Positions 8,208 through 26,303 of a DNA stretch of 45,109 nucleotides are shown here, piece after piece. The DNA lies in assembly GCA_946626345.1 (NCBI GenBank), contig CAMOUB010000002.1, positions 1-45,109 on the forward strand, given 5' to 3'. A program made the translations under genes and the position numbers. Source of the DNA: an uncultured Caryophanales bacterium. GTDB lineage: Bacteria > Bacillota_I > Bacilli_A > Acholeplasmatales > Anaeroplasmataceae. Below the pieces are notes generated by a model. The model ran no database searches. It was not told the DNA's origin and saw only the letters and a list, made by a program, of their open reading frames with translations. The stretch's first letter is position 1. Each line of letters opens with the position of its first letter.

Positions 8208-11200
8208 TTACATAAATTTATCTCTTATTTCTATTACAAATGCAATTGTAGAATCTGCTGTTAATAATTTTACTTGTGATAATGACTCACAATTATTATT
8301 AACCTCATAACAATTAGTTAATAATGGATCAATAAACTTATATGGTAATAATACATTTCCTGAATCAACTAAATTATAGTTATCATGTCCTTCAATTTGA
8401 ATTACTGAAGTATTTGTAATATATGTTTCATAATTAATCAAATTACCTGAAACCATAAATCCAGAGATTAATAGGTCAGATACAATATATGATAATATAT
8501 TAGAATCTAATACTGTATAAACTTCTTCTACACTTAATCCGGCAAGTACTTCAAAGTCAATAACAATACTAAATGATTCAGTATTAAATACCTTTATACC
8601 TGCAAGTAAATTAGTTATTTCAGTTGCTGATAATATACATATATCATTATTTTGCCAATCTTTTTCTAATGTAGCATATAATTCATCCTTTAATACATAA
8701 GTATTTCCAGAATCATTTCTTACTTGTTTTGTAATAGTCGCTCTTAAAATGTAGCTTGATACTACACTTTCAGGATTTGTTACATCTGTTGGCTTTAATG
8801 TATTTGCATCAAAGCTACCAAATGTAATTTCTTCTGCTGTACCATGTTCAATAGCTAATAATAATTCTTTAATATATTCAGCCTTTAAAATCATGATATC
8901 TGGTGTGAAATCAAATGTGTTATAAGGAATAACTACTGATTCGTTTTCAACTAAATTCTTAGAGAATGTTGCTCTTATAATCATTGATTCATCAATTGTA
9001 GAAATTGTTGTATCATTGATTCTTAATAAATCCATATTAAATCCATGAATATTAGATACATTACATCCTATCATAAAATCTCTTATTCCTTCTAATTCTT
9101 CTTTATAATAGAAATAATCTGTATTAGATACTCTTTCATCTAAATATTTAGATTTATTATGTTCAACTATATCAGGATTATTACTGATTTCTTCATGAGC
9201 CTTAATATAAATTATATCCCAAACTGATAGTGAATTAGATACTATAGAGTAATCTATATTTTCATCAACTATTAATGATGAATAATCAGTATGAATCTCA
9301 AAATCAGAAATTGAATTAAATCCTAATTCATTAACTGCGCTAATTGCGTTTACTAATTCAGATTTCATTAAGAATTTATAATCATCTGATTCATATCCTG
9401 ATTCTAATTCTTTAATTGCAGATATAACATTTGCTCTATTACCTAATGTATTTAATGTATCAAAATAATTATTAGATAATGTAGCTTTCATAATGATTGA
9501 TGTATAAATAGTATCAATTTCATCTTCAGTTAATTCTAATAATTTATTTTTAACTGTTGTATTATTTAATCCATTTTCAGAATTAATTTTAACATCATCT
9601 AAAATAAATACATTTGCACTATCTAATATATGATTAATTTCATCTGTTAAATACCATATATTATTAGCAAAATCATTTGTTAATTTATCCTTTGTGGCAT
9701 TAGCTAAATGGACACTTGGAATAATTAAATCATCTGATACATCAGGTAATTTATAAGTAATAGTTGCATTAAAGATTAATGATTCAACTAAATCTCTTGC
9801 AAGTCTTATTGTAATAATATTAGGATTATAATTAAATTCTTCAATATTTATTGCTCCATCAATTCCTACAGTATAGAATGATTCCTTATTTACAGTTATT
9901 TTATCTAAGAATAGCTTAGCTTCATTAATAGTTAAATAAGTATTATTAGCTTCATTCTTTTCTAATACTATATCAGGAATAACTATATCTTCTTTAGAAT
10001 TCATCTTAGAATAGATAGTTGCTCTAAAGATTTTTGATTTTGCAAGTGTTTGATTATTATCAATATTTAATATAATACTATTCATACTAGGATTAGATAA
10101 ATCAAGATTTAATACATTTATTACATCTAATAAATCCATAATATCATCTTTTACAATTAAATTATCATCTACTATTATTGAATCAGTTGGTACACTAATA
10201 TCTTCTGCTTCATTTACATTAAATGTAATTGTTGCCATTAATATATAAGAATTACCAATAGATTCTTTTGTATTATCATTAATAATAATATCTGATGGAG
10301 AGAAATCATTAATATCAATTTCATCTTCCCCACTAGATTCTTTTACTATATCCTTTAATGATTTAATTTCAAGCTTCTTATAGAATGATGTTTCAAGTCC
10401 ATATCTATTTTCATGAGCTTTAATATGATCTTTTATTTTATCATTTTCTATAATTACATCATTCATCTTATTTGATACTATATTCCATACAATAATAGAA
10501 TCATATAATTTATCAAAATTAATATCATTATTAAATATTATATTAATATAATTAGCACTATCTATCATACTAGCATTATTAATACCTAATTCTTTTAAGG
10601 CATTAATTAATAATTTAACCTCAGATGATTTATATGTTAATTCATTAAAAGTATCATCTAGCGTATAAGTTATAGCTAATGCTTCTTTTGAATAATTAAT
10701 TACATCAGCTGAAGCTAATGTATTAATATTTTCATCTAGCTTATTAGATATTGTATAATTTACAATTATTGATTTGTAGCATAAATCAATATCACTATTT
10801 GATAAATCAAATACTTTATCCTTAATTTCATCAGTATTAACTTCACCAATTGTTTTATTTTCACCAACAATAGTAATTAATGAATTTAGCATATTATCTA
10901 ATTCTTCTTTTAAATACCATGTAGTATTAATGAAATTATTAATTAAATATTCCTTGTTAGCTTCTTGTTCTAGCTTATTTGGTATATCTATACCATAATC
11001 TAAATTATTAGCTATTTTATTAATAATAGTAGCATGTAAGATATTAGAGCTTGTAAAATCAAATAATTCTTCTATCTTAAAGCTGTTTTCTGAAATATTA
11101 ATATTAACTATGTTAACTTTAACATTTTCATCACTAGTACCAAATATATTTTCTCTATTAGCAACTAATACAGAAAGTAAATTATGTAATTCAGTTTCTG

Positions 11201-14198
11201 ATATATAATCATTATTTAATGTATAAATGTTATCATTTGGAATTACAAGGGTATCATTTGATGATATTTCATTATCAAATGTAGCTCTAAAGATTTTTGA
11301 ATCAACTAATGAATCAATATCAGCTTCCTTTAAATATATTTCTTCAATATTAGCTTCTTCTAAATCTAGATCTAATTTTTTAGCTACAACCACAATCTTA
11401 GATATTTCAGATTTTAATATAACCTTATATGAAATTTCATCTTTTATATATGTATCATTATCATCATATGCATCTGTAGGTATTATTACACCCTTTACAT
11501 CTTCACTTGTCATATGATTTGATAATGAAGCCTTTAATATTTCAGATTCATAACAAGCATCAAGCTTTGTATAATCCTTACCTGGAATTTCATCATTTAG
11601 CTTCATTATATTATTTTTTAATAAATTGGCTGTTTGTTCTTCATCATTTAAATCAATATCACTATTTGATAAATCAAATGCATAGTCTAATCCCTCAATT
11701 AATTTATTTAATTCTTTTGTTTCTTTCCAAATATTTGTATCTAAATATTCTTTTAATTCATCCCTTGAGGCATCATTTTTATAATTATCAGGTATTGTAA
11801 CAAGGTTCTTTATATTTGAATCTCCATTAGCCATATAATTAATTACAGTGGCATTAATTATATCACTTTCAAGTAATCCATCTTTATTATTAATTATAGT
11901 TTTAATTAGATTAGTATTATCTGTATCAGATATACTAGGTAATATTACAACTAAGCTATCTACTACAGATATTAATTCTTCTTTTTTAATTAAATTAACC
12001 TTATTTGAATCAATTGTTTCTAATACTGTATTAGGAACAATTATTTCAACACCAGATATAACTGAATAGCTTACAATTAAGCCTGATACAACAGATCTAA
12101 ATAATGTTGAATAGAATATTGTGCTTGCAGGAGATGGTTCTCCTTCATATTTTGTTCCTAGTGCTTTAAATATATCAACAATTAAATCATTTCTTTCTTT
12201 TTCAGTACCTTCTGTAAATACCTTATATTTCTTTAATGATTCAGTTAAGAAATCATTTTTTAATAGTATCTTAAATGCTTCTAAGAAATTATATGTTTCA
12301 CCATTTAGCATTAAAGAACCATCTGTATTATATTGATTAGCATAAGATATTCTTGGTACATAAATATCAGGTATATATGTCACTAAGAAGTTTTTAATAG
12401 CATTTGCACCACTACCTGTTTGGAATGCTCTATCTAATATTTTTGAATCAGATACTAATGATTGAATGTTTTCATATTTTTCCATGTTTTCTTGTGCGTT
12501 AGGATTATTTCTATCAAACATTTCTAATATGTTAGTAAATACATCTTGATTTTTATTATAAACATTTTTAGCAATAGATATTGTATCTTTAGATGCTTGT
12601 AATAAAGATTTAATTTCAAATACCCAGTCAAATGTTTCATTTTCAAGTCCTCTAAGTAATACCTTAGCTGATGTATTTTCTACATTTGAATTATTAGGAA
12701 CTGCGTTCTTTAGATATCTATTATCAAGATAAATATATAATCTTTCTAATATAGAATTCATTTCAGTTTTTCTTTTATCACTTAATATAGATAATTTTTC
12801 TAAAGAAGGTAATACATTTTCTAATAAATTCATAATCTTCATTGCATCATCATTTGTTTCATCTAATTTTAATGATGATAATGCAACCTTTAATAATGAT
12901 TTAGCATCATCCTTAGTTAATAAGCTTGATGCTTTCATAAATGGTCTAATTTGATAATTAGGATTAGAATCTATATTATCTAGGTCAGCCTTTTCTTCAG
13001 GGATATATTTAGATAAATATCCTTTTTTAAATACTAATGATATTAATCCAACTGCATCACTATCAGTATTTACTTTTAATTCATCTATATGATTTACAAT
13101 AGAATCTAACAATGATAATGAGAAATTAACAAAATATGTTTTAGCATCAAATGAATCTATTACTTTATTAAATTCTTGTTGGAATCCCTCATTAGACATA
13201 ACAGACATTAATGTATTCATGATATCTTTATTATCATTAATAGCACTAACTATTTCATCTTTACCATATTTCATTAATAAATCGATTGTTGTTCTTGCAA
13301 ATTCAGTATAAGCACCCATTTCATTTGCGAAATTGAAATTAGCATTTATTCCTCTTTCAGGATCATTAATTTTACCAGAGAATACTAAATCAGCTGCGTA
13401 TAGATAAAATGGCATATTATCTTTTACTTTAATTGTATTTAATATTTTAAATATACCAGCAGTACCATATGAACCAAATGCTTCATATACTTTATATCCT
13501 TCTGTTAATTTAGAATCATTAAAGGATATATCATCTTTATATTTATTTTCACCAGTTCCTCCTGCAATATAGAAAAATGAACCAATAAATGCTAAAACAA
13601 CAATACCTGTAACTAAGCCTCTAATAGCACCTACAATCATTCCTAAGAATCTATGCTTTTTATATTCTTTATCAGTTTCAAGCTTATTGTTAGCTTCTTC
13701 GATTTTTTCTTTTCTTCTTCTTTCAGGATAGAATATTAAATAAATAATATAGAAAATAAATACTAAAGCTAAATAAATGAATATGCATAAAAATGCTAAA
13801 ATTATTTTATATACAAGTAATACTAGCTGTAATAAGTATTGTCCATTTTCTTTTAATATTAATTGAATACCATCACCATAATTCATTTGTTTTGGTATAT
13901 ATTCAATTAATATTTCAGTCATTTTAGAAGATTCCTCAGATACTCCAAGCTGACGCTGAAGACCACCTTTACCCATAAAATTATTTATAAATCCTACTAG
14001 GCCAGAATCTACCGTTTTAGAATTAGTAAGCACTGCAAAAATAATAATACATATTACAAATGCAACAAGTGCGTCTATAGCAAGTATTAAACTTTTTCTA
14101 AATCCTCTAATAATTCCTAATATAATAGCGAATATTAAAATAGATAAAAATAATAAAGTTGGTATTAAAATTACTAAGGTTTTAGCCATATCGCCCAT
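8208..14198 (-). CDS. Giant CvpA-like membrane-anchored protein with long repetitive C-terminal region
   Basis: 1996 aa. N-terminal CvpA-like multi-TM region (ILGIIRGFRKSLILAIDALVAFVICIIIFAVL... GMIVGAIRGLVTGIVVLAFIGSFFYIAGG). The C-terminal ~1300 aa has recurrent S-x-I-x-x-A-T-I-x-x-x-[LM] modules. Confidence 0.75.
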   Translation of the reverse strand: MGDMAKTLVILIPTLLFLSILIFAIILGIIRGFRKSLILAIDALVAFVICIIIFAVLTNSKTVDSGLVGFINNFMGKGGLQRQLGVSEESSKMTEILIEYIPKQMNYGDGIQLILKENGQYLLQLVLLVYKIILAFLCIFIYLALVFIFYIIYLIFYPERRRKEKIEEANNKLETDKEYKKHRFLGMIVGAIRGLVTGIVVLAFIGSFFYIAGGTGENKYKDDISFNDSKLTEGYKVYEAFGSYGTAGIFKILNTIKVKDNMPFYLYAADLVFSGKINDPERGINANFNFANEMGAYTEFARTTIDLLMKYGKDEIVSAINDNKDIMNTLMSVMSNEGFQQEFNKVIDSFDAKTYFVNFSLSLLDSIVNHIDELKVNTDSDAVGLISLVFKKGYLSKYIPEEKADLDNIDSNPNYQIRPFMKASSLLTKDDAKSLLKVALSSLKLDETNDDAMKIMNLLENVLPSLEKLSILSDKRKTEMNSILERLYIYLDNRYLKNAVPNNSNVENTSAKVLLRGLENETFDWVFEIKSLLQASKDTISIAKNVYNKNQDVFTNILEMFDRNNPNAQENMEKYENIQSLVSDSKILDRAFQTGSGANAIKNFLVTYIPDIYVPRISYANQYNTDGSLMLNGETYNFLEAFKILLKNDFLTESLKKYKVFTEGTEKERNDLIVDIFKALGTKYEGEPSPASTIFYSTLFRSVVSGLIVSYSVISGVEIIVPNTVLETIDSNKVNLIKKEELISVVDSLVVILPSISDTDNTNLIKTIINNKDGLLESDIINATVINYMANGDSNIKNLVTIPDNYKNDASRDELKEYLDTNIWKETKELNKLIEGLDYAFDLSNSDIDLNDEEQTANLLKNNIMKLNDEIPGKDYTKLDACYESEILKASLSNHMTSEDVKGVIIPTDAYDDNDTYIKDEISYKVILKSEISKIVVVAKKLDLDLEEANIEEIYLKEADIDSLVDSKIFRATFDNEISSNDTLVIPNDNIYTLNNDYISETELHNLLSVLVANRENIFGTSDENVKVNIVNINISENSFKIEELFDFTSSNILHATIINKIANNLDYGIDIPNKLEQEANKEYLINNFINTTWYLKEELDNMLNSLITIVGENKTIGEVNTDEIKDKVFDLSNSDIDLCYKSIIVNYTISNKLDENINTLASADVINYSKEALAITYTLDDTFNELTYKSSEVKLLINALKELGINNASMIDSANYINIIFNNDINFDKLYDSIIVWNIVSNKMNDVIIENDKIKDHIKAHENRYGLETSFYKKLEIKSLKDIVKESSGEDEIDINDFSPSDIIINDNTKESIGNSYILMATITFNVNEAEDISVPTDSIIVDDNLIVKDDIMDLLDVINVLNLDLSNPSMNSIILNIDNNQTLAKSKIFRATIYSKMNSKEDIVIPDIVLEKNEANNTYLTINEAKLFLDKITVNKESFYTVGIDGAINIEEFNYNPNIITIRLARDLVESLIFNATITYKLPDVSDDLIIPSVHLANATKDKLTNDFANNIWYLTDEINHILDSANVFILDDVKINSENGLNNTTVKNKLLELTEDEIDTIYTSIIMKATLSNNYFDTLNTLGNRANVISAIKELESGYESDDYKFLMKSELVNAISAVNELGFNSISDFEIHTDYSSLIVDENIDYSIVSNSLSVWDIIYIKAHEEISNNPDIVEHNKSKYLDERVSNTDYFYYKEELEGIRDFMIGCNVSNIHGFNMDLLRINDTTISTIDESMIIRATFSKNLVENESVVIPYNTFDFTPDIMILKAEYIKELLLAIEHGTAEEITFGSFDANTLKPTDVTNPESVVSSYILRATITKQVRNDSGNTYVLKDELYATLEKDWQNNDICILSATEITNLLAGIKVFNTESFSIVIDFEVLAGLSVEEVYTVLDSNILSYIVSDLLISGFMVSGNLINYETYITNTSVIQIEGHDNYNLVDSGNVLLPYKFIDPLLTNCYEVNNNCESLSQVKLLTADSTIAFVIEIRDKFM

Positions 14199-17099: not shown

Positions 17100-17402
17100 T
17101 TATTCTCTTATACCTTTCATTTCTTTTTTTCTTTGATACATTGCTTGATCTGCTCTATTGAATACAGCTTCAATATCATCACCCTCTTCATAGAATGATG
17201 CACCTACTGCGGCTGATACCTTTTCCCATGGTTCAAGCTTATCATCATTTGTCATTTTATCAAATATGTTATTAATCTTTTCATATAATGAATTAAAACG
17301 ATAATAATCATATCTTCTTAATATAACAGCAAATTCATCTCCACCGATACGATAAACGTAAGAATGCTTAAATACATCACAAACAATTTTAGCAAGCTTT
17401 TT
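17100..17402 (-). pseudogene. C-terminal fragment of a GGDEF (diguanylate cyclase) protein
   Basis: Minus-strand open frame without start: KKLAKIVCDVFKHSYVYRIGGDEFAVILRRYDYYRFNSLYEKINNIFDKMTNDDKLEPWEKVSAAVGASFYEEGDDIEAVFNRADQAMYQRKKEMKGIRE*. Confidence 0.88.
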
Positions 17403-17406
17403 AATT

Positions 17407-17470
17407 ATAATATAATTTTATCATAGTTTTATAAAGAAAAAATGTAGGAATTAAATCCTACATATTTTTT
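17407..17470. repeat. Direct repeat copy A (includes terminator)
   Basis: ATAATATAATTTTATCATAGTTTTATAAAGAAAAAATGTAGGAATTAAATCCTACATATTTTTT; one substitution and one indel versus 20701-20765. Confidence 0.9.
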
Positions 17471-20400
17471 TATCTATTCATATATTTTAATATGAATTCA
17501 TAGAAGAATAATAATTTTTTATTTAGTACTTCATATAATCCATTGTATGCTTCAGTACTTATTCCATCTTCTTTTAACATTTCCTTTAATGATTCATCAA
17601 ATGTTTCATATGATGGATTCTTTTCATCCATTTTATTTTTTAAATAATGCATTTCAAAATCCAATTTACATATTAAATCAACGCTTACTATTGGCCATAT
17701 TTTTTCATTTTTTGACAAGAATGAATCGATAATTTCAGTTAATATTTCTTTATCATTAAACTCAATATATTTTACCTTTATTTTAGTTAAGCATTGTTTA
17801 TAAATCATATCGTAGATATAACAAGCTGCAAAATAAGATCTATATATTTCATGTGATATAGAATTACCTGTAATAATCTTTCTTGCCTTTAAGTGATTAT
17901 ATAATTTTTTAGCATATTCATTTAATTCTATATCACTAAAAGAAGAATTCTTTTTATCTAATGACTCCATTTCTTCATCGCTTAAATTAAGAACTACATC
18001 ACTTGGTTTTTTAATATACTCCTTAAATAGTTTTTCGACATCTGGTGTATTTATATCACATAAATCATATGCTAATTTAGTTAATATTTGTCTTGCTGAT
18101 AAATGAATTGTATCGAAAATATCATTTCCTATAGTTCTTTCATTTTCTAATGCTGTAATCAATAATTCTTCTGACTTATCAATGATTTCATATTTTTGTG
18201 TATATAACTTATTTGTTACAAAATAAATATAAATTAAATTTGATATTAATAATGGATTTTTCTTTATATCATCAGATAATATTTCTAAAGTTTGCATAAA
18301 TGCTTCTTTAGAAACTTTATTATTAAATGATATAGTATGCTTATTATCATCCAACTCTTTATCTTTTGATTTTTGTCTTTCTAGTATATTATCAAATAAT
18401 TTAGATATGTCTTCATCATCCATATTTCTAATCTTTAAATTTAAAGAATCAATATTATTATCAGCTATTAATTTTGAGTCAGATAAATTTCTAGATGAGA
18501 ATATTAAATGAATATTGTCTTTTCTATTATTCTTATAGAAATCAATTGCCATATTAACAATTGATTTTGTTTTATCTAATGCTTCATCTAATGCATCAAT
18601 AATAATATAAAAATCTAGTTTATCACTGATTAAAATATTAGATAAATCTTCTCTTATATGATAATATTTTTCTTCTTTAAAACTTATTTTTCTAATAATA
18701 TCTAATAAGTTATTAGTTTTATCTATTTTAGTTTTAATTTCAGAACATGGTAAATAGAAAAATAATTTATTGTTATTTAAATTAATTCTAATTAAATTTT
18801 TTAGATATAAAGACTTACCTGTACCACCAGCTCCATAAATTAATATTGGATTGTTTTTATAATTTAATATATCATTTACATTATATTTTTTATCAACGCC
18901 TACTAAATCTCTATTAATATATCCATTTTCAAATGTTAATGATGTGACAATTGTTTCATCCTTTTGCTTATTCATAACATCACTTAATGTTACCGGAAAT
19001 ACATCATATGATTTTTTTTGAATATTTCTATATTCTCTAAATAATTCTTCTTTTACTACAGTTTTAGTGAATTTTAAAATACCTGCTTCATTATTTTCAT
19101 CATAATTAAAATCAACAGTAAGTGGAATTAATTTAGTAAATGAATTATCTTGCTTATTTAATTCATTAATTACATCTTTCACATCATGATTATCATCTTT
19201 TAATACATATATTTTTATATTCTTATCTGTTATATTTTTTTCTTTTAATGTGTTAAAAATCATTTCAATTTCTTTTGGAATAAAATTACTACTATATGCA
19301 TCATATGATAATAAGATTATATATCCCTTAGCTCTTCTTATACCCTCTTTTACTGCTTCAGTTAGTTCTCCTCTAGCACTAGTATCACTTTCCCATACTT
19401 GATATTTATTGTTTTCTAAAAATAATTTTAATTTATTCTTTTCTTTAGAATTATTATGATTCCAACTAATAAATATATCTATATTTTCAGGAATATTAAG
19501 CTGATCTACATTTTGTTTGTTAATTAAATCTTCAATTTCCTTGATTAAATCATCACATTGAGTATATCCGTTATCATATGCTTTTTTTAACCATTTTAAT
19601 GCAGTATTATAATCTTCTTCTACACCTTCACCGCTATAATAACAATATCCAAGGTTATATTGTGATTCAGCATCGCCTTGTTCGGCTGCTAATTTATACC
19701 ACTTAAATGCCTCTTCTTTATTTTCCTTGACCCCTTCACCATTATCATAACAAATACCCAAATTAAACTGGGCTTTAATATGGCCTTGTTCGGCTGATTT
19801 CTTAAACCATTTAAAGGCTTCTCCAGAGTTTTGTTCCACACCATCACCTTTTAAATAACAAAGGGCCAAATTAAATTGAGCTTTAATATGACCTTGTTCG
19901 GCCGCCAATTTATACCATTTGTAGGCTTCTTTGTTATTTTCTGCTGTGCCTTCACCATTAGCATAATATATACCTAAATTAAACTGGGCTTTAGCATAGC
20001 CTTGTTCGGCTGCTAATCTACACCATTTAAAGGCTTCTCCAGAGTTTTGTTCCACACCATCACCTTTAGAATAACAAAGGGATAAATTAAATTGAGCTTT
20101 ATCAATCCCTTGCTCGGCTGATTTTCTATACCACTTAAATGATTCTTCTTTATTCTTTTCTATTTTCTCTCCAAAACCATAAAAAGTGCCTAAACTAAAT
20201 TGTGCTTCTGCATGACCTTGTTCGGCTGCTAATTTACACCATTTAAATGCTTCTTCTTTATTCTTTTCAACTCCCACACCAAAAAAATAGAGGTTTGCCA
20301 AATTAAACTGAGCACTTGTATGGCCTTGACTTGCCGCCAATTCATACCACTTAATTGCTTCTTTTGTGTCTTTTTCTATTCCATTTCCACTATAATAACA

Positions 20401-20667
20401 ATAACCAACATTATACTGTGCTCTTGCATAGCCTTGTTCTGCAAATGATTTAAACAATTTAAATGATTCTTCTTTATTCTCTTCTATTCCAATTCCATAA
20501 AAATAACAATATGCTAAATAAAGACCATATGTATAGTCATCTTTATGTTTTGATAAATAATCAATCATTTCTTTATAATTGAAATCATTAGAAAATTTAA
20601 TTTCACTATATGGATTATTATCGTCACTTATATATTTAATTAATTCATCTAAGGTATTTATTAGCAT
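17470..20667 (-). CDS. Sel1-repeat / TIR-like / NACHT (STAND) NTPase protein, putative defence NLR-like
   Basis: Nine 36-aa SLRs (e.g. HIKAQFNLGICYDNGEGVKENKEEAFKWYKLAAEQG). TIR-like IDIFISWNHNNSKEKNKLKLFLENNKYQVWESDTSARGELTEAVKEGIRRAKGYIILLSYDAYSSNFIPKEIEMIF. Walker A ILIYGAGGTGKS; Walker B FYIIIDALDEA; sensor HLIFSSRN. Confidence 0.88.
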   Translation of the reverse strand: MLINTLDELIKYISDDNNPYSEIKFSNDFNYKEMIDYLSKHKDDYTYGLYLAYCYFYGIGIEENKEESFKLFKSFAEQGYARAQYNVGYCYYSGNGIEKDTKEAIKWYELAASQGHTSAQFNLANLYFFGVGVEKNKEEAFKWCKLAAEQGHAEAQFSLGTFYGFGEKIEKNKEESFKWYRKSAEQGIDKAQFNLSLCYSKGDGVEQNSGEAFKWCRLAAEQGYAKAQFNLGIYYANGEGTAENNKEAYKWYKLAAEQGHIKAQFNLALCYLKGDGVEQNSGEAFKWFKKSAEQGHIKAQFNLGICYDNGEGVKENKEEAFKWYKLAAEQGDAESQYNLGYCYYSGEGVEEDYNTALKWLKKAYDNGYTQCDDLIKEIEDLINKQNVDQLNIPENIDIFISWNHNNSKEKNKLKLFLENNKYQVWESDTSARGELTEAVKEGIRRAKGYIILLSYDAYSSNFIPKEIEMIFNTLKEKNITDKNIKIYVLKDDNHDVKDVINELNKQDNSFTKLIPLTVDFNYDENNEAGILKFTKTVVKEELFREYRNIQKKSYDVFPVTLSDVMNKQKDETIVTSLTFENGYINRDLVGVDKKYNVNDILNYKNNPILIYGAGGTGKSLYLKNLIRINLNNNKLFFYLPCSEIKTKIDKTNNLLDIIRKISFKEEKYYHIREDLSNILISDKLDFYIIIDALDEALDKTKSIVNMAIDFYKNNRKDNIHLIFSSRNLSDSKLIADNNIDSLNLKIRNMDDEDISKLFDNILERQKSKDKELDDNKHTISFNNKVSKEAFMQTLEILSDDIKKNPLLISNLIYIYFVTNKLYTQKYEIIDKSEELLITALENERTIGNDIFDTIHLSARQILTKLAYDLCDINTPDVEKLFKEYIKKPSDVVLNLSDEEMESLDKKNSSFSDIELNEYAKKLYNHLKARKIITGNSISHEIYRSYFAACYIYDMIYKQCLTKIKVKYIEFNDKEILTEIIDSFLSKNEKIWPIVSVDLICKLDFEMHYLKNKMDEKNPSYETFDESLKEMLKEDGISTEAYNGLYEVLNKKLLFFYEFILKYMNR

Positions 20668-20700
20668 AATATAATCTCCCTTTTAAATAGAATTTAAATC

Positions 20701-20765
20701 ATAATATAATTTTATCATAGTTTTATAAATAAAAAAATGTAGGAATTAAATCCTACATATTTTTT
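20701..20765. repeat. Direct repeat copy B (includes terminator)
   Basis: ATAATATAATTTTATCATAGTTTTATAAATAAAAAAATGTAGGAATTAAATCCTACATATTTTT. Confidence 0.9.
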
Positions 20766-20778
20766 GTGTTTATAATTC

Positions 20779-23270: not shown

Positions 23271-23313
23271 TATAAAGAAAAAAATGTAGGAATTAAAACC
23301 TACATCTTTTTTT
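23271..23313. repeat. Third, partial copy of the terminator repeat
   Basis: TATAAAGAAAAAAATGTAGGAATTAAAACCTACATCTTTTTTT. Confidence 0.75.
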
Positions 23314-23770: not shown

Positions 23771-26125
23771 TTATTTTGTATCTAGATTAGCTCTTGGATC
23801 TAAAATAACAGTTGTACCAATATTTCCTACATAGACTTCAAATGTCTCTATCTTACCAAATATTTTACGTGTAAATCCATATGAAACTAATCTATTATTA
23901 ACAAATTTAATTGATACATTAGTTAAATCACCTGAATCTGCCTTTATTAATTCTGCCTCATATGCAGAAGTTTCTGGATTATAAGTTAATTCATCAAAAC
24001 TAAATATTGGTAAATACATTATATTAGCCATGAAATAATCAAATGAATTTGTTTCATTATTTACAGTACTCCATGAACTTTCATAAATATAATAACTATA
24101 TGATACGTTATCTCCTATTGAATTTATATAATATGCTTCTAACATTCTAGTACTATTATTTCTTAAATAACTATCTAATCTTATTCCATCATCATATTGT
24201 ATAATACCTGAATAAATACCATATGAATATGCTAATGTAATATTTAATTTTTCAAGGTCTTCTGGAGTCATATGGAAAAATTTATTAAATGCTCTTTCTG
24301 TTGTTATAGTTGGGCATGGATTTTCAACTTCAGTTTCATCTATATTAGAAATAGAACATGTAACACTTGATTCAGATATACTATTTTCTATTAGATCATA
24401 ACTATATGATTCTAATTTTTGATCTTTAAATTTAATTTTTACATTATTATAAACCAAATCACCAACTTTAATTGAACTTGCTACAAAATAACCATTAGAA
24501 TAATCAAAATCACTTATATCAAAAACTGGAAGATAAAAATTATTTTTATATCTTGCGATAGTTGAATTATCATCTATCAAATCAGTCCAATTTTCACCAT
24601 CAAAATTAGCTTTATTAAAATATAGAATATCTTCTTTAGAATCATAATCTATAAAATTATAATATACCTTTCCTGAATCTAAGTTATTTGTATATGTATC
24701 AATAGCCATTCCATCAGCTATTTCAATTGTACCTTCATAAGTTCCGTAGTGGCTTGCTGAATCTTTATAATTAATTGTTAGATTCATATTTTTTAATGAA
24801 TCATATGAACCAAAATATGAATTGAATGTTTCTTCTGTTACAACATTAGGACATGGATTTTCAACTTCAGTATCATCTATATTTGTTATGTAACATGAAA
24901 TAGTAGATTTTACATAATCCTCTGTTAATTCATAGCTATAAGAACATAATAAATCATTTAAAAATCTAATTGATATATTTTCATAAAGCCTATCATCTAT
25001 TTGAATAGAATCTGCAGTATATAGGTTATCTTCTTTTGAATAAGTAAAATCATCAATATTAAAAATTGGAATATAATAATAATTCTTTGCTGTAGAAACA
25101 CTTAAATTAAAATCAAAATTTAGATTCCATGTTTCCTCTGACCCGTCACAATCATAATTATTACATAATATTTTATCATTAGAAGGATTGTAATCTAAAA
25201 TCTCATAGAATACTTTTCCAAAATCTCCTTCACTTTCAAATGTATCAAGAACCATAGAATCAGCTATTTCAATTGTACCTTCATAAGTTCCGTAGCTTGT
25301 TGAATCTTTATAATTAATTGTTAGATTCATATTTTTTAATGAATCATATGAACCAAAATATTTATTGAATGTATCTTCTGTAACCTCACAAGCTGTAGGA
25401 TTATCAAATTCTACTCCACCAATTTTTTTAACATTTGCTATAAATGAATGTTCAACAGAATCAAAAACAAATTTATAGCTATATGATACTAATTTATTTT
25501 TATCAAATTGAATTGAAATATCTTTATATGTAGCACCAGCTAATTTAATTTCTTTTGCTTCATAAGCTCCAGTTTCTTCATTGAATTTCAATTTATCAAA
25601 ACCAAATAATGGTATGCCTATCTCACTTGCTAATAATTCATTTCCTACTTCATATTCTTTAGGACTATTCCACATGAATAATGGATCATAATTTGATTTT
25701 TCAATAATTAATTTATTAGATACACTATCATAATCTTTTATTCTAATAAATAGCATTTCATCATGGAATTCATCACTCTTATCAACAAGTAATTTATTTG
25801 ATGCTATTTTAATATTTCCAATATTTGTATAAAGACTACTTTCTTCTTTATACTCAAGTTCTATATTTAATTTATTTAATGAATCATTATATGATCCAAA
25901 GAATGAATTAAATACTTCCTCAGTTACTTTTTTATCTTTAGTATCAACAACCATAGTTTCAACAGGATTAGTTGTTCCAGAACTTTCTTCAGTTTCTACT
26001 ACATCCTTTGTTGTAGGCATATCAGAAGTTGATGTTAAATTATCCTTTTTAGCTTTTGTACAAGATGCTAGGGCAGATAAAGATATTACCCCTGTTAATA
26101 AACCAAATAATGCTTTATGTTTCAT
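23771..26125 (-). CDS. Lipoprotein with four tandem ~180-aa repeat domains, hypothetical
   Basis: Start revised to MKHKALFGLLTGVISLSALASC (RBS AAAGGAG). Repeats of VTEETFNSYFGSYDSLKNMNLTINYKDS...YGTYEGTIEIAD. Confidence 0.75.
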   Translation of the reverse strand: MKHKALFGLLTGVISLSALASCTKAKKDNLTSTSDMPTTKDVVETEESSGTTNPVETMVVDTKDKKVTEEVFNSFFGSYNDSLNKLNIELEYKEESSLYTNIGNIKIASNKLLVDKSDEFHDEMLFIRIKDYDSVSNKLIIEKSNYDPLFMWNSPKEYEVGNELLASEIGIPLFGFDKLKFNEETGAYEAKEIKLAGATYKDISIQFDKNKLVSYSYKFVFDSVEHSFIANVKKIGGVEFDNPTACEVTEDTFNKYFGSYDSLKNMNLTINYKDSTSYGTYEGTIEIADSMVLDTFESEGDFGKVFYEILDYNPSNDKILCNNYDCDGSEETWNLNFDFNLSVSTAKNYYYIPIFNIDDFTYSKEDNLYTADSIQIDDRLYENISIRFLNDLLCSYSYELTEDYVKSTISCYITNIDDTEVENPCPNVVTEETFNSYFGSYDSLKNMNLTINYKDSASHYGTYEGTIEIADGMAIDTYTNNLDSGKVYYNFIDYDSKEDILYFNKANFDGENWTDLIDDNSTIARYKNNFYLPVFDISDFDYSNGYFVASSIKVGDLVYNNVKIKFKDQKLESYSYDLIENSISESSVTCSISNIDETEVENPCPTITTERAFNKFFHMTPEDLEKLNITLAYSYGIYSGIIQYDDGIRLDSYLRNNSTRMLEAYYINSIGDNVSYSYYIYESSWSTVNNETNSFDYFMANIMYLPIFSFDELTYNPETSAYEAELIKADSGDLTNVSIKFVNNRLVSYGFTRKIFGKIETFEVYVGNIGTTVILDPRANLDTK

Positions 26126-26303
26126 TTTTAACTCTCCTTTAAACATAAAATTTTTACATTATCATTTTAAAACTTTTTAAAATATAATACATCAACCATA
26201 TGGCTGATTTTTAAAAACTATTTAATTATTATTTAATATTAATCTGGCTTACCTGAGATATCTTCTATTAAAAAGCTAAAATATATTTTAACTTCATAAT
26301 AAA

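Follow-up and report, generated by a model that had tools for sequence, protein, structure and literature searches.

The window (the whole 45,109-nucleotide stretch of DNA analysed here) carries an open reading frame at 17470–20667 on the reverse strand, which begins with ATG and encodes a 1065-aa protein in which an array of Sel1-like repeats (SLRs) precedes a TIR domain and a NACHT module. The assignment draws on the reading frame itself, Pfam, AlphaFold2 models and folds in the PDB, and all parts of the gene described below lie on the same strand. The carrier is a gut-type Mollicutes bacterium with three such genes in its genome. A GGGAG ribosome-binding-like site (20676–20680, same strand) is found about 9 nt upstream of the start codon. 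The gene is a single-gene unit, alone between two 72-bp direct repeats that are 95% identical in sequence comparison: the upstream one, with a hairpin and promoter-like DNA, at 20690–20766 and the downstream copy at 17399–17470, both on the reverse strand. The same 22-bp terminator-like hairpin is present at 20737–20758 and, right past the stop codon, at 17442–17463. Both the coordinates and the single-gene layout proposed in a first-pass annotation of this DNA are exact. The flanking direct repeats could allow gain or loss of the cassette by recombination. As a genome-wide element the hairpin repeat can be dismissed, its only two exact copies being those that flank this gene; a partial third copy occurs at 23271–23312 of the window, beyond the neighbouring LRR lipoprotein gene.

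After a head of 44 residues (1–44; 20536–20667), residues 45–368 (19564–20535) form nine 36-aa Sel1-like repeats, as the annotation had proposed. Pfam Sel1 matches nine stretches (E=9.7e-102), the repeat frames begin at residues 45, 81 and so on to 333, and the DNA has an exact period of 108 nt. A 216-nt unit of two repeats is 81% identical to the adjoining unit, which suggests that the array grew by duplication of repeat pairs. In a full-length AlphaFold2 model the array is predicted with pLDDT mostly 85–95; with an overall pTM of 0.40, this model is unusable as a guide to how the head is placed against the core. Compared with the PDB, the SLR part finds solved Sel1-repeat proteins as its best matches (E ~1e-22), with DELE1 among the fold matches. 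Proteins of this type often serve as scaffolds, and SLRs can also oligomerise, as in DELE1.

The domain that follows, at about residues 393–525 (19093–19491), is a TIR domain: TIR_2 is matched above the curated cut-off (6.5e-8, residues 398–488) and the TIR profile finds the NADases Cat1, RPP1 and TIR-1 in the PDB. The glutamate of its FIPKE motif, E466 (19270–19272), which had been singled out as the NADase residue, is invariant in alignments A1 and A4 and, when aligned with TIR-1, falls on the catalytic glutamate of the WVHKE motif. The catalytic role of this residue in TIR NADases is established, and from its sequence the domain is predicted to be an active NADase.

A linker defined by alignment (residues 526–600; 18868–19092) leads to the NACHT nucleotide-binding domain at about residues 601–770 (18358–18867), which is followed by a helical, winged-helix and short C-terminal region according to AlphaFold2 secondary structure (residues 771–1065 and the stop codon; 17470–18357). 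The NACHT module as a whole spans approximately residues 601 to 960 and includes the Walker A motif GAGGTGKS (residues 612–619; 18811–18834), the Walker B motif IIIDALDE (residues 688–695; 18583–18606), SSRN and the winged-helix motif SHEIYRSYFAA (residues 938–948; 17824–17856). Walker B is of the NACHT type, hhhhD[GAS]hDE, with a small residue right after the Mg-binding Asp. The core positions of both Walker motifs are invariant across five aligned sequences, S725 and R726 of SSRN are conserved, and H939 of the winged-helix motif is invariant in alignment A1. In two relatives described below, this site has R in place of the His (L051) or reads FHKSLLEYFTA (L052). The Pfam hits in this region are to NACHT/NPHP3_N; the NACHT model itself scores below its cut-off (1e-3, 19.4 bits against 26.7), which is passed by the relatives G007 (8.3e-7, 29.4 bits) and L054 (4e-7, 30.4 bits).

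A core model of residues 385–1065, built by AlphaFold2 from an alignment of seven sequences, reached pLDDT 76 and pTM 0.74. Its best PDB matches in Foldseek are RPP1, NOD2 and NLRP3 (E ~1e-8), with NLRC4, Avs4 and EfAvs5 also among the best (E ~1e-8 to 1e-6 overall); since global TM-scores are low (0.25–0.39 by query), the matches establish the fold class and not the domain arrangement. The complete set of NACHT-type motifs, the TIR-like middle domain and the structural matches for which the first-pass annotation had called are thus all in place, the SLR part finding Sel1-repeat proteins and the core RPP1, NOD2 and NLRP3. Pfam detected neither SIR2 nor nSTAND3, the effector and ATPase by which Avs5 is recognised, and PADLOC gave no full-length match to a defence model, only weak domain-level matches to mad8 and SAVED_TIR.

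NLR-type receptors are usually described in the order effector, switch, sensor. Here the array stands ahead of the TIR domain and almost nothing lies past the NACHT module: past the winged-helix motif the chain runs on for only about 115 residues, which leaves no space for a long C-terminal repeat array. The repeats are indeed at the other end, as had been noted, and the order called inverted is so in one respect: the SLR array precedes the TIR domain, but TIR followed by NACHT is itself normal. In the antiphage NACHT/STAND proteins of bacteria the effector is N-terminal, the NTPase central and the sensor C-terminal (PMC12169576; PMC12931631), in agreement with the annotation, and the N-terminal array of the present protein is therefore atypical.

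Several known systems share parts of this design. The TIR-STAND-TPR protein of P4-like satellites ('TIR-NLR'), which protects E. coli, likewise combines TIR, a STAND NTPase and helical repeats in a single gene, but its repeats are C-terminal TPRs, whereas ours are N-terminal SLRs without a C-terminal array (PMC9122126). The bNACHT proteins (bNACHT25 and relatives) are also single genes with a NACHT-type NTPase, in some clades with a short C-terminus; they differ in a C-terminal sensor and in effectors that are N-terminal nucleases or not discernible (PMC12169576). Avs5, which senses phage through a C-terminal TPR/Sel1 domain, shares an NAD-consuming type of effector, a STAND ATPase and Sel1-type repeats, but has SIR2 for TIR, nSTAND3 for NACHT and its repeats at the C-terminus (PMC12931631). 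Among the top fold matches of the core, plant RPP1 shares the placement of TIR before the NTPase; RPP1 and the animal NOD2 and NLRP3 differ in their C-terminal LRR sensors, and the plant NTPase is an NB-ARC. SARM1 and TIR-1 do place superhelical repeats N-terminally, ahead of a TIR NADase, but they oligomerise by SAM domains, lack NACHT and have TIR at the C-terminus. In the open-access literature searched, we found no description of a bacterial SLR-TIR-NACHT protein. The suggestion that the layout is undescribed thus stands provisionally, but not as a claim of uniqueness, given the three paralogues and the relatives in other species; in other respects the protein belongs with the known bacterial TIR-STAND and bNACHT receptors.

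The source genome (1.43 Mb in 114 contigs, 76% complete) contains two further full SLR-TIR-NACHT genes, C7 and C10, whose products are 63% and 46% identical to that of the window. Within the same genus the core is also carried by G007 (1187 aa), on a contig deposited as uncultured Anaeroplasma, and by G001 (1063 aa), a degenerate N-terminal case in which the Sel1 signal is nearly gone and the repeats are barely recognisable. Among the matches listed, L051 (deposited as Erysipelotrichaceae RUG14619) has the SLR-TIR-NACHT layout, and L052, L053, L054 and L055 share the TIR-NACHT core with TIR at the protein start and no SLRs. L053 ends at a contig edge, and L055 nearly duplicates L054 but is interrupted by a stop. 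When these relatives are left out of the profile, it still matches the genomes of L052 and L053 at E=1.1e-57 and 1.1e-32, respectively. In L052, L053 and L054, Pfam finds BspA-type LRR_5 repeats at the C-terminus. The intact family members checked have a single repeat array each, either N- or C-terminal, with the exception of G001. That relatives without SLRs have C-terminal LRR_5 arrays suggests that the two kinds of array do equivalent work.

The TIR-NACHT core is present in 5 of 161 genomes of the order. Samples of the class and phylum gave no further full core, only matches of TIR length, and the full core therefore looks restricted in its occurrence among the matches listed. Phage and plasmid records gave no match to the core, which speaks against a phage or plasmid origin of the gene. 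Two viral-contig matches were weak and partial, and since the ORFs concerned are no full relatives they were left uncounted. Two other observations concern proteins built from similar parts. An 850-aa protein of the source genome (contig C45, L004:364-2916) has a TIR-like N-terminus (weak in Pfam, below the cut-off) and 13 Sel1 stretches, and many genomes of the genus encode SLR proteins of similar size. The TIR-NACHT-LRR gene of L052 is immediately preceded by the gene of a separate 359-aa TIR protein (L052:1017-2096), and the two may form a unit.

The three paralogues of the source genome tell conflicting stories at their two ends. Against C10, the protein of the window is 62–67% identical in the SLR head and 42–45% in the core; against C7, the head is about 41% identical and residues 526–1065 are 79% identical. 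The conflict includes residues 1–45, where identity is 62% with C10 and 33% with C7. The switch falls at residue 330/331 (19676–19679), in the eighth repeat, the one breakpoint of a maximum chi-square scan, with a chi-square of 141.6 that was reached in none of 2000 shuffles (largest 19.6, p<0.0005). Judging from these comparisons, the sensor heads have very probably been exchanged between paralogues. The conflict would also arise if the C7 head had simply diverged fast after duplication, without recombination, and synonymous sites in the SLRs are close to saturation for all pairs (pS 0.60–0.64), which makes the head alignment less certain. We consider this improbable: the C7 head lies at least as close to the outgroup G007 as does the head of the window's protein (32% and 27% identity over residues 1–80), so that an unequal rate alone is a poor explanation, the heads shared with C10 are more similar than the cores, and the switch at residue 330/331 is sharp.

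The variability of the SLR array, its being the sole array of the protein and the LRR alternative in relatives make it the probable sensor, although SLRs can also act as scaffolds or oligomerisers, as in DELE1. By analogy, and most simply, the N-terminal array would do the job of the C-terminal arrays in TIR-STAND-TPR and Avs5. The true sensor could instead be the short C-terminal helical segment, with the SLR array as an adaptor that tethers, oligomerises or binds a partner. Clade 14 of the bNACHT proteins has such short C-terminal (SNaCT) domains without repeats (PMC12169576), SLR proteins frequently form scaffolds, and the array of this protein matches the SLR oligomer of DELE1 in structure. 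We nevertheless regard a C-terminal sensor as unlikely, because residues 761–1065 are 78% identical to those of C7 while the SLRs are 41% identical, the reverse of what a diversifying sensor would give, and because other family members bear a C-terminal LRR array instead.

The neighbours of the gene are an aldose epimerase, a BspA-type LRR lipoprotein and galactose-metabolism genes. No defence genes were found among them, and a defence island at this locus can be set aside. In the sister species G026 the flanking genes are 47–87% identical in protein to those of the window, but between the aldose epimerase and the block of a 432-aa protein and galactokinase, unrelated genes replace the SLR-TIR-NACHT gene and its two neighbours. 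The locus is a variable, accessory genomic slot. A 791-aa ORF without a confident Pfam match lies within the slot (23771–26146). Elsewhere in the window (8208–14198) is a 1996-aa ORF, unmatched in Pfam, whose N-terminus contains hydrophobic segments; it is flanked on the opposite strand by tRNA-His and tRNA-Trp genes.

Other copies have different surroundings. The G007 copy, in another species, adjoins csn2-cas2-cas1-cas9, a complete type II-A CRISPR-Cas locus, and also an HTH and ImmA/IrrE-like pair. The G001 copy sits between tsaD and glnS (names from reading the translations). C7 is directly preceded by a cluster (L039:629-10052) of three VWA-domain proteins, a protein kinase, an HTH protein and a TPR-DUF6273 protein, which recalls VWA-based conflict systems, and upstream of C10 is a 949-aa protein in which matches to EF-Tu domain 2/3 are joined with InlB/Listeria-Bacteroides repeats (L040:10742-13591). 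A defence role gains support from the G007 relative, beside Cas9-Cas1-Cas2-Csn2.

Our main reading, to which we give a probability of roughly 60%, is that the gene encodes a one-gene, NLR-like TIR-NACHT receptor that protects against phage by abortive infection and senses its trigger through the N-terminal SLR array. In the resting state, the NACHT module would hold the protein inactive. The SLR superhelix would read a trigger of the infecting phage, directly or through a host protein, and so free the NACHT module for nucleotide exchange and oligomerisation. Clustered TIR domains would then build composite active sites and hydrolyse NAD+, the loss of which would arrest or kill the infected cell. 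Oligomerisation and anti-phage function are predictions of this model. Counting against it are the surroundings of the copy in the window, which include no defence genes, the tsaD–glnS position of G001, the weak PADLOC matches, the empty search of phage and plasmid records, the NACHT score below its cut-off and the R of L051 at the winged-helix His. Nothing in the analysis favours the further idea that the SLRs sense cell-envelope cues. The protein could also be a TIR-NACHT signalling ATPase with a housekeeping or stress role, for example in metabolic gating of NAD+ turnover. For this there is the precedent of SARM1, whose N-terminal ARM repeats autoinhibit its TIR NADase and sense metabolites (PMC9780360; PMC8735862), and the copies in the window and in G001 lie outside defence islands. 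Such a role appears quite improbable, since conflict genes better account for the scattered occurrence, the three divergent copies of a single genome, the variable slot and the one CRISPR neighbour.

If the sensor of this putative anti-phage receptor does work ahead of the effector, the mechanism of release would differ from the restraint of the NTPase by a C-terminal array, and may involve direct shielding of the TIR domain in the manner of the SARM1 ARM repeats. More tentatively, and with less than even confidence, we propose that the TIR-NACHT family of Mollicutes and their relatives has a core that takes a sensor array at either end, SLRs in front or LRRs behind, and that the SLR sensors of a single, reduced genome, swapped between paralogues by recombination, make up a miniature NLR repertoire. 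With their swapped heads, the gene of the window, C7 and C10 would form a natural domain-swap set for trigger specificity in bacterial NLR-like proteins.
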